Virus record (IMG/VR): IMGVR_UViG_3300004806_000008
Location: 1 to 35,477 of that record
Reading direction: 5' to 3' (one strand)
Length of the DNA: 35,477 bases
Source: a virus
In this document: in pieces, positions 11,744-17,247 of the stretch
Layout: each line of letters begins with the position of its first letter
Position numbering within the stretch: the stretch's first letter is position 1
The notes under the pieces: model-generated
Databases searched by the model: none
What the model was told of the DNA's origin: nothing
Seen by the model: the letters and a program-made list of their open reading frames with translations, nothing else
Program-made: the position numbers and the translations under genes

Positions 11744-11886
11744 TTCTCACTCGCTTTCTTTAGTATTGCTCTTGCAAAATCTAAAACATTTTTATTTGTT
11801 AAAACAATTCCTAGTTTTATTGCACCAATAAAATGGTTTTTTACTGCTTCAATTATTTCTTCATCTGTTAGTTCATTTTTTGTCAT
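11740..11886 (-). CDS. Small helical protein of unknown function
   Basis: 48 residues: MTKNELTDEEIIEAVKNHFI followed by GAIKLGIVLTNKNVLDFARA and a Lys-rich end (ILKKASEK). Mostly helical and soluble by appearance. ATGA overlaps link it to both neighbours. Its final six residues match those of the downstream gene at protein and DNA level, a trace of duplication or exchange at gene junctions. Confidence 0.55.
   Translation of the reverse strand: MTKNELTDEEIIEAVKNHFIGAIKLGIVLTNKNVLDFARAILKKASEK
11741..11760 (-). repeat. 20-base gene-junction repeat, copy 2
   Basis: Identical to 11499-11518; contains the end of the 48-residue gene and the start codon of the 81-residue gene. The bases after the repeat differ (taaac at copy 1, tttag at copy 2 on the plus strand), so the identity ends abruptly. 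Confidence 0.85.
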
Positions 11887-12032
11887 TTTGTTGGCCCACC
11901 TAAAAGTTGTTTTTCAAGTTCTCTCATTTGTTGGCTTGTTTCTTGCATCATTAGTTGTTGCTTATCTAATAATGCCATTGCAGCTTCAAATTGAGCTTTC
12001 CAATAAGCGATTTGTTGATCATAACTCTCCAT
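11883..12032 (-). CDS. Small coiled-coil protein of unknown function
   Basis: 49 residues. Nearly all helical and Gln/Glu/Met-rich (SYDQQIAYWKAQFEAAMALL, then DKQQLMMQETSQQMRELEKQ) with a short GGPTK end. It looks like a self-associating helix. It starts inside the upstream gene (14-base overlap) and its stop overlaps the next start. Confidence 0.55.
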   Translation of the reverse strand: MESYDQQIAYWKAQFEAAMALLDKQQLMMQETSQQMRELEKQLLGGPTK

Positions 12033-12327
12033 CGTTCCATGCCCTTTCTGCTTCTAAATAAGCGGATTTTTCTCTTGATTCAAACGAAATGTAATACAAT
12101 AAACGACCTAACTTTTCAAAGGCTTGTGCTTGTAAATATTCTTGAATACTCTCTGCTTGTTCAGCAGATGCACTATAAATATCGTCAGAAAAGTTTTCGA
12201 ATAATGTGTGGTTGTAATCATCATTGTGATTCTTTAAATGTTTAGCAAACGATTCAATCGTATCTTCTGCTGCTTCACGATTTTCTGTTTCGCTATCGTA
12301 AGATAACCAGGAGTCAAAGTTATTCAT
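12019..12327 (-). CDS. Acidic protein of unknown function
   Basis: 102 residues, acidic and helical (YDSETENREAAEDTIESFAK, then SASAEQAESIQEYLQAQAFE, and FESREKSAYLEAERAWNDGE). No cysteines or membrane span. Its ATG overlaps the stop of the 29-residue membrane gene (TAATG). Size and charge are like some phage DNA-mimic or anti-host proteins, but that is only a resemblance in composition. Confidence 0.6.
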   Translation of the reverse strand: MNNFDSWLSYDSETENREAAEDTIESFAKHLKNHNDDYNHTLFENFSDDIYSASAEQAESIQEYLQAQAFEKLGRLLYYISFESREKSAYLEAERAWNDGEL

Positions 12328-14886: not shown

Positions 14887-15135
14887 ATGAATAAAACAGT
14901 CAACAATTTAACCTTCAGCGATTCCATGCTGATTGATCTTCTAGGTGGTACAAATAAAGTGGCTAAAATGTGTCAGGTTGCACCTGCAGCCGTCGCACAA
15001 TGGCGATTACGAGGATTACCACATGGTCAATTAATATTTTTAGCAGCAAGACTTGAGAAAGAAAGTCATGGTTTAGTCACAAGAAAAGATTTATTTCCAA
15101 AAACTTGGGATTTAGTTTGGCCTGAGTTACAATAA
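14887..15135 (+). CDS. Cro/YdaS-like transcriptional regulator
   Basis: 82 residues. A helix-turn-helix covers about residues 18-44: LLGGTNKVAKMCQVAPAAVA followed by QWRLRGLPHG, then FLAARLEKES and a C-terminal TRKDLFPKTWDLVWPEL. Loss of Gly-Gly-Thr plus VAQWRxRGLP is typical of Cro and YdaS proteins that bind short palindromes as dimers. It faces the leftward ERF operon across 108 bases holding a 14-bp palindrome. No CI-type partner is visible, so it more likely tunes early transcription than controls lysogeny. The upstream region has TGTAAAATAAAC as a possible -10. Confidence 0.8.
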   Translation: MNKTVNNLTFSDSMLIDLLGGTNKVAKMCQVAPAAVAQWRLRGLPHGQLIFLAARLEKESHGLVTRKDLFPKTWDLVWPELQ

Positions 15136-15140
15136 TTTTG

Positions 15141-15335
15141 TTTTAGGTTTCTAGTTGGTCGGGTAACGGCAGCAACAGAGATACAAGCAGACTGTGGGAA
15201 GCTGGTGTAATACTGCATAAATAGGTGGCGAAGATAGTGCCTATCCAGCGCAAGACTGTCGGGTGACGAGGCTCCGAAGGAAAAGCACGTTTGAAGGATA
15301 CCTAGGATAGCTAGGTGTCTTTCACCAAAGGAAAA
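15141..15335 (+). ncRNA. Structured RNA or cis-regulatory leader candidate, unassigned class
   Basis: A 203-base gap without an obvious protein, clearly richer in G and C than its surroundings. Pairings I can see: GCUGG (15201-15205) with CCAGC (15245-15249); inside it AUAGG (15221-15225) with CCUAU (15240-15244), directly stacked; GAUACCUAG (15297-15305) with CUAGGUGUC (15311-15319), one G-U pair. GTCGGGTRACG occurs at 15158-15168 and 15258-15268, and AGACTGT at 15189 and 15253. The last hairpin competes with GGTG/CACC (15314-15325) beside the AAAGGA ribosome site of the next gene. Could be a riboswitch-like leader or a free small RNA; I could not match it to a known family. Confidence 0.55.
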
Positions 15336-15338
15336 ACT

Positions 15339-15431
15339 ATGAATTCTAAAGATATTAAAGATTTTGAGAAGTTATTAGATACAATAATTATAGTTTTAGT
15401 TATTGTGTTGTTTTTATTTTTATGGATTTGA
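15339..15431 (+). CDS. 30-residue single-span membrane peptide
   Basis: MNSKDIKDFEKLLDTIIIVL followed by VIVLFLFLWI: a charged start and one hydrophobic span to the end. It has a good ribosome site (AAAGGA, 8 bases upstream) directly after the structured leader, which may control it. Its stop shares one base with the next start (TGATG). Function unknown. Confidence 0.6.
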   Translation: MNSKDIKDFEKLLDTIIIVLVIVLFLFLWI

Positions 15432-15992: not shown

Positions 15993-16397
15993 ATGTTCAA
16001 ACAATCAACACTAGATATTTTTGATACAACAGAAGAAGAATTAATAAATACTGTTTATACAAAAAAAGTAGAAGTACCTGTTTATGTACCTAAATATGAA
16101 AAACCAAATATTTTTGAGTTATTTAATCACAAAAAAACATTAGAACTTTTGCAAAACATAGAAAAATCTAATTTAACTATAGAAGAAAAAAAATTTTTAA
16201 CTTTAGCTGCATATAGGCATACAGTTTTATATTTCGACAAAATAGCAGATTATTATGCCCATTCAAATAAAGAAATGCAAGAATTGATGGAACAATCTGC
16301 TCTTGTAATTATTGATTTTGATAAAGCAATTGAAAATGGGTTTGCTGTATTGAACAATGAATTATCTAATCAATACCTAGAAGATCAAAATGGATAA
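15993..16397 (+). CDS. Helical partner of the glycosyltransferase, unknown function
   Basis: 134 residues. A Pro-rich N-terminal linker (KVEVPVYVPKYEKPNIFELF) leads to a compact helical domain: EEKKFLTLAAYRHTVLYFDK, IADYYAHSNKEMQELMEQSA, LVIIDFDKAIENGF. The conserved-looking AAYRH, ADYYAH and LVIIDFDKAI give it the look of a real protein family. It overlaps the glycosyltransferase gene by 8 bases, so the two are made together and probably act together. I recall this kind of helical protein beside TAGT-type glycosyltransferases in phages, but only from memory. Confidence 0.65.
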   Translation: MFKQSTLDIFDTTEEELINTVYTKKVEVPVYVPKYEKPNIFELFNHKKTLELLQNIEKSNLTIEEKKFLTLAAYRHTVLYFDKIADYYAHSNKEMQELMEQSALVIIDFDKAIENGFAVLNNELSNQYLEDQNG

Positions 16398-17247
16398 TTT
16401 TTGTGTTTTTATCTTAACTCATGGTAGACCTGATAAAGTTTTTACTTATAAAACAATTAGAGATAAAAATTATACAGGACCTATTTATTTAGTTGTTGAT
16501 GATGAAGATAAAACTTATGATCAATACACTAATTTATATGGCGATCAGGTTATTCAATTTTCAAAATCAGAAATAGCTAAAACTTTTGATGTTGGCGATA
16601 ATTTTAATGATAGGCGAGCAGTTGTTTATGCTAGAAATGCCGTATTTGATATAGCTAAAAAATTAGGTTATAAATATTTTTTAGTATTAGATGATGACTA
16701 TACTGATTTTCGGTGGTCATTTACTAATGAAAAAAAATATGTCACAAATAAATACATACAAAACTTAGATAAAATATTTGAAATACTTTTAAAGTTTTAC
16801 AAATCAACAAATTTTACATCTATTTGCATGGCACAAGGTGGTGATTTTATAGGTGGCGAAGGTAGTGGTTTAAGTAAAACATTTTTAAATGGCCAAATAT
16901 CAAGAAAAGTAATGAACAGTTTTTTTTGTTCAACTGAACGGCCATTTCAATTTGTAGGTCGTATTAATGAAGATGTAAACGCTTATTGTTACTTTGGATA
17001 TAAAGGTCATTTATTCATGACTGTTGCACAACTAAGATTAGAACAAAAACAAACTCAAAGTAATTCTGGTGGTTTAACAGATATTTATTTAAATTTTGGT
17101 ACTTATGTCAAAAGTTTTTATTCAGTTATGTATAATCCAGCTAGTGTTAAGGTTCGACAAATGGGACAAAATAACAAACGATTGCATCATAGTATTCATT
17201 GGGATACTACAGTACCTAAAATATTAAGTGAAAATTTTAAAAAATGA
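16390..17247 (+). CDS. GT-A fold glycosyltransferase, TAGT-like (possible DNA-base glycosylation)
   Basis: 285 residues. GT-A pattern: FCVFILTHGRPDKVFTYKTI at the start, IYLVVDDEDKTYDQY (35-45), RRAVVYARNAVFDIAKKLGY (75-94), LVLDDDYTDFRWSF with a DxD-type metal site at 101-103, then FVGRINEDVNAYC with the likely base Glu194/Asp195, and HHSIHWDTTVPKIL near the end. This order fits the TAGT family (TET-associated glycosyltransferases) proposed to put sugars on oxidised pyrimidines in phage DNA. No TET/JBP dioxygenase or hydroxymethylating enzyme is visible in this genome. It could instead glycosylate a host-made substrate, an unmodified base or a protein. Confidence 0.7.
   Translation: MDNFCVFILTHGRPDKVFTYKTIRDKNYTGPIYLVVDDEDKTYDQYTNLYGDQVIQFSKSEIAKTFDVGDNFNDRRAVVYARNAVFDIAKKLGYKYFLVLDDDYTDFRWSFTNEKKYVTNKYIQNLDKIFEILLKFYKSTNFTSICMAQGGDFIGGEGSGLSKTFLNGQISRKVMNSFFCSTERPFQFVGRINEDVNAYCYFGYKGHLFMTVAQLRLEQKQTQSNSGGLTDIYLNFGTYVKSFYSVMYNPASVKVRQMGQNNKRLHHSIHWDTTVPKILSENFKK

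Follow-up and report, generated by a model that had tools for sequence, protein, structure and literature searches.

What does the long gap between a Cro-like gene and a tiny membrane gene encode in this phage contig? The window, which is the whole stretch of DNA analysed, comprises 35,477 bases (IMG/VR record IMGVR_UViG_3300004806_000008, positions 1–35,477). Its genes include a P22-type portal, Terminase_3, ERF, and SSB. A TET-associated glycosyltransferase is encoded at 16390–17247 (Pfam TAGT, E 1.7e-35); its presence suggests that the phage has hypermodified bases in its DNA. Directly upstream of the gap is a Cro/YdaS-like gene (14887–15135, + strand) with about equal matches to Pfam P22_Cro (E 6e-5) and YdaS (E 7e-5), both below curated cut-offs. 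Directly downstream is a 30-aa membrane ORF (15339–15431, + strand) with no Pfam match. The gap spans the 203 bases from the cro stop codon at 15135 to the downstream ATG at 15339 (15136–15338). The initial annotation singled it out for length and composition, and it stands out in both: GC content is 48.4% at 15148–15335 versus 36.6% for the whole window, and of all 188-base segments only 1.3% are equally GC-rich.

A protein-coding role for the gap was rejected, as the ORF list holds no + strand ORF of at least 40 aa within it, and no conserved protein frame runs through the region. A search for tRNA and tmRNA found neither. The sequence at 15130–15345 has a minimum free energy of −60.9 kcal/mol, lower than expected from dinucleotide shuffles (z = −2.17; 5 of 200 shuffles equally low). 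This z-score is modest because pseudoknots are left out of the energy. Homologues with compensatory changes were found, and it is well supported that the gap encodes a real, elaborately folded structured RNA. The full conserved RNA occupies 15147–15335 (+ strand, ~190 nt), and an nhmmer profile built from homologues aligns to 15139–15346.

The whole window was searched with cmscan against the Infernal covariance models of Rfam 15. The sole match was RF02932, "Betaproteobacteria-1", at 15148–15264 (+ strand), with 79.7 bits against a gathering threshold of 49.4 (E 2.7e-13) and coverage of model positions 1–120 of 120. Membership of this family is certain. The RNA had been called one of unknown class. 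Taken narrowly this is wrong, since the RNA clearly belongs to RF02932; no assigned function was found for that family, however, and the open-access papers searched mention neither its accession nor its name. Relaxing the search of the gap to E ≤ 10 returned RF02932, one chance match, and nothing else. Cobalamin and glutamine (glnA/downstream-peptide) riboswitches, to both of which the initial annotation had likened short fragments, are thus unsupported, and those fragments are chance resemblances.

RF02932 and the window RNA share hairpins P1, P2, and P5, all formed in the window, and a conserved GGUGGCGAAG segment. Missing from the Rfam structure are a pseudoknot (PK1), helices P3 and P4, and an entire 3′ domain (P6, P7, and the repeated words R1/R2). 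The homologues show that the Rfam model covers just the 5′ two thirds and that the conserved RNA continues ~70 bases further, to ~15335. The family name refers to a bacterial group, whereas the carriers are phages and copies in bacterial genomes are rare.

Homologues were collected with core and 3′-domain patterns in viral contigs and with a genome-contig scan, followed by a profile search. At least 240 were found, nearly all in IMG/VR phage contigs. Copies above the cut-off occurred in 5 of 399 Burkholderiales genomes, and one further bacterial copy lies in a Methylococcales MAG (L132). Blastn of the window sequence against the phage collection gave only a short chance match; other queries recovered one environmental contig and one isolate. 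The isolated Acidovorax phage AP1 (OM049504.1, L330) carries the RNA unannotated near 11856–12045, between a primase gene and the next ORF. Twenty-three of 24 phage records hold one copy. The 44-kb contig IMGVR_UViG_3300047557_000594 has two near-identical copies (L271 and L281) 35.2 kb apart, and is explained either by concatemeric assembly or by the presence of two related phages. On another contig, a C4 antisense RNA (RF01695; L146:1656–1745) lies ~6 kb upstream of the RF02932 RNA. C4 is also a phage regulatory RNA but is a separate element with its own Rfam model and no overlap.

The fold was derived from 45 diverse homologues aligned with MAFFT without use of structure; all features that follow are on the + strand. 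Hairpin P1 (15147–15182) pairs 15147–15152 with 15177–15182 and 15154–15157 with 15173–15176; most relatives form 7–12 bp here with completely different sequences. PK1 joins 15169–15172 in the P1 loop to 15192–15195 (97.2% of cells paired, two-sided changes at three of four pairs). P2 pairs GCAG (15187–15190) with CTGC (15213–15216), with two-sided changes at all four pairs. P4, outside the Rfam structure, pairs GCUGG (15201–15205) with CCAGC (15245–15249); 85% of cells are paired and all four tested pairs show two-sided changes. P3, likewise outside the Rfam structure, pairs 15221–15226 with 15239–15244 (94.7% paired, two-sided changes at four of six pairs) and has a conserved GGCGAAG in its loop. 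P5, a helix of RF02932, pairs GATAGT (15233–15238) with ACTGTC (15255–15260) and is paired in 98.9% of cells. Two stacked helices proposed from the window sequence, GCUGG/CCAGC and AUAGG/CCUAU, are both present and covary across the 45 homologues; the second (15221–15225/15240–15244) lies within P3. P2 and P5 covary in the same set.

Six helices together with PK1 are paired in 91.5% of cells of the alignment. Their covariation is 0.549; shuffles give 0.196 (sd 0.010), and sliding the partners gives no more than 0.135. A model-free mutual-information scan of all column pairs ranks the same helix pairs at the top, PK1 included. PK1 links the loops of P1 and P2. P2 crosses P4, which encloses P3 and crosses P5; P3 also crosses P5. 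The core (P1, PK1, P2, P4, P3, and P5) is thus shown to be a chain of interlocked pseudoknots.

The 3′ domain (15261–15335, + strand) is outside the Rfam model. It contains P6 (15265–15268/15288–15291) and P7 (15297–15305/15311–15319), which covary in the 45-sequence alignment. P7 is the 9-bp hairpin that had been noticed close to a ribosome site, and it does lie 5′ of a Shine-Dalgarno-like AAAGGA (15327–15332) and the ATG at 15339. When the 3′-domain pattern was searched alone, most recovered loci also held the core, so the two belong together; 13 new loci had no profile match. The word AAGGAAAA occurs twice as a direct repeat on the + strand, as R1 in the P6 loop (15277–15284) and as R2 after P7 (15328–15335), where in this phage it shares bases with the Shine-Dalgarno-like site that precedes the next ORF. 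R1/R2 similarity is 8.55 within a locus versus 5.37 when words are swapped between loci (n = 168), and the word differs between almost identical RNAs (TCCGGCA, TCCGTGT, TCCGAGT, TCCAGCA).

The 3′ domain contains two half-domains, D1 and D2 (CGGGTnn..CTCCGaAAGGC and TAGGTnn..CACCaAAAGGC in many relatives), with R1 and R2 at their 3′ ends. D1 is the strand 5′ of P6, and D2 is the 3′ strand of P7. The halves covary as the same letter, without complementarity (columns 137/246: GG 36, AA 6, CC 2; columns 140/251: TT 12, GG 11, CC 11). As a partner of D1, a locus's own P7 5′ strand beats swapped ones in 68% of comparisons, and part of the D1/D2 likeness modestly fits alternative pairing with that strand. 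Since D1 and D2 can both pair with the P7 5′ strand, this domain may work as a switch, although the signal is weak. Competition of R2 for the P6 5′ strand was unconvincing (56% wins over swapped strands).

Complements of R1/R2 within the core or upstream, searched to 1 kb, were no more frequent than in swapped controls. As guides to a cis target the words were rejected, since the slight excess of complements downstream (40 versus 33.05, sd 2.6) is unconvincing, as is that in the 3′ domain (6 versus 2.85, sd 1.9). Direct copies of the word elsewhere in the loci show a small excess that looks compositional (124 versus 90, sd 10). For the repeated word, the simplest idea would be one trans-acting partner common to R1 and R2.

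The RNA may be a trans-acting regulatory RNA cut from the early transcript and acting on phage or host RNA or protein, with R1/R2 as its recognition sequence. Rfam types RF02932 as an sRNA, and the words, though hypervariable, are the same within any one RNA, which would be expected of a recognition word present twice; unrelated genes downstream would also fit. However, the orientation of the RNA is fixed, sense within one operon; no target complementary to R was found within 1 kb, and no specific copies occur elsewhere in the loci. An intrinsic terminator follows within ~140 nt 3′ of the RNA at only 6 of 108 loci; its absence at the other 102 sets the RNA apart from a typical terminated sRNA, and an sRNA with its own terminator was rejected on this ground. 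Action in trans is possible but rather unlikely.

The surroundings of the RNA favour control in cis. Among the matches listed, the largest group of loci (61) has a Cro-like gene of the same cluster directly upstream; in a second group the RNA follows helicase and primase-like genes, as it does in Acidovorax phage AP1. In 184 of 223 loci the gene that follows points the same way as the RNA. These downstream genes fall into many unrelated clusters and lie anywhere from overlapping the RNA to more than 150 nt away. The RNA is shown to be a sense element of the phage early operon, normally present in one copy per genome.

A ligand-sensing riboswitch that controls translation of the next gene would account for the strongly conserved unpaired bases and interlocked pseudoknots, which are typical of aptamers, and for a 3′ domain with possible alternative pairings. 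In the window, the AAAGGA that R2 overlaps stands six bases 5′ of the start codon (ATG) of the 30-aa membrane ORF. This reading is improbable: the downstream gene is unconserved and its distance is as variable as described above, R2 is not Shine-Dalgarno-like in GC-rich relatives (TCCGGCA, TCCAGCA), and cmscan at E ≤ 10 matched no riboswitch family. More improbable still is a ribozyme, or an RNA component of the machinery for replication or packaging, that lies near the replication genes by chance. Its elaborate pseudoknotted fold and invariant loops, and its position beside helicase-primase genes in one branch, could be read in this way, but cmscan matched no known ribozyme family, the RNA is found at sites away from the helicase-primase pair as well, and a terminase gene was never seen adjoining it.

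Unrelated next genes, variable distances, and rare terminators make a gene-specific riboswitch or a terminated sRNA less likely than an RNA acting in cis at the level of the operon, that is, on the early transcript as a whole and not on one gene. The RNA probably has a part in controlling early phage transcription; we hold this last, operon-level reading tentatively, at somewhat below an even chance. The initial annotation had left the choice between a riboswitch-like leader and a free regulatory RNA; a phage-borne structured regulatory RNA is upheld, and a cis leader is favoured because no terminator follows the RNA and it occupies a sense position in the early operon. In the proposed mechanism, RNA polymerase would pass cro, after which the folded core would form on the early transcript. 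The core would then bind either a ligand or the machinery of transcription (or translation), and this binding would set readthrough or expression of the operon. A likeness of the P1 loop to lambda boxA was seen by eye in one subfamily only and is not general.

A second element is linked to the RNA in relatives. In each of 103 distinct relatives, a run of at least five T lies ~90–120 bases before the P3 anchor, roughly 25–40 before P1, and in most of them it is preceded by a long hairpin. The loop of this hairpin has a complement of at least seven bases just upstream of the hairpin in 76% of cases versus 16% in shuffles, and the sequence of this pseudoknot (loop to 5′ strand) varies across relatives. 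Within the upstream 75 bases, a promoter (at least 9 matches out of 12) is present at 58% of 71 leader loci versus 9% in shuffles, with its −10 element most often 11–15 bases before the complement. The leader, which on these sequence patterns appears to combine a promoter with a pseudoknotted terminator-like hairpin, is found 90–230 bases upstream of the P3 anchor in L101, L074, L079, L192, L276, and ~100 relatives. It has no Rfam match in the loci scanned. It is missing from the window, so the RNA as such does not depend on the leader. In ~100 relatives the terminator-like hairpin sits ahead of the RNA and not behind it, which counts against the operon-level cis reading.

Phages of aquatic and soil proteobacteria could control their early operon by a two-part RNA leader, although we regard this as unlikely. 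Its first part would be the promoter-proximal pseudoknotted terminator, absent in the window, and its second the multi-pseudoknot RNA, whose 3′ domain would hold a rapidly changing word of 7–9 bases, identical in two copies, that recognises a partner. If true, this leader would represent a novel type of switch, built from RNA, for early transcription.

The window RNA is a new member of RF02932, a family that is known but functionally orphan; its structure is substantially extended here, and its association with phage early operons is clear. New in this analysis are the early-operon placement, ~70 added bases, three interlocking helices, and the linked terminator-like leader. RF02932 moves from an orphan sequence family to a testable early-transcription element in hundreds of phage contigs, and Acidovorax phage AP1 is an isolated carrier on record for experiments.

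The closest known parallel in position is the put system of phage HK022. Put-type RNA works through RNA polymerase to suppress pausing and termination. The window RNA and HK022 putR both follow cro closely in the early right operon, on the sense strand. The window RNA starts ~260 nt after the cro start codon, and putR lies ~270 nt from where PR transcription starts (PMC9378689). The folds are unrelated: HK022 put RNA is ~70 nt with two stem-loops (PMC9378689), whereas the window RNA is ~190 nt and pseudoknotted. HK022 has two put sites per phage, whereas the RF02932 RNA is normally single copy. Intrinsic terminators downstream show no sense enrichment (45 sense versus 88 antisense in 302 kb), and a need for antitermination on that ground is unsupported. 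Antitermination stays a conjecture because fold and copy number differ from put and sense terminators are not enriched downstream. The RNA is put-like in position, not in structure; by analogy, it may act on early transcription as an antiterminator.
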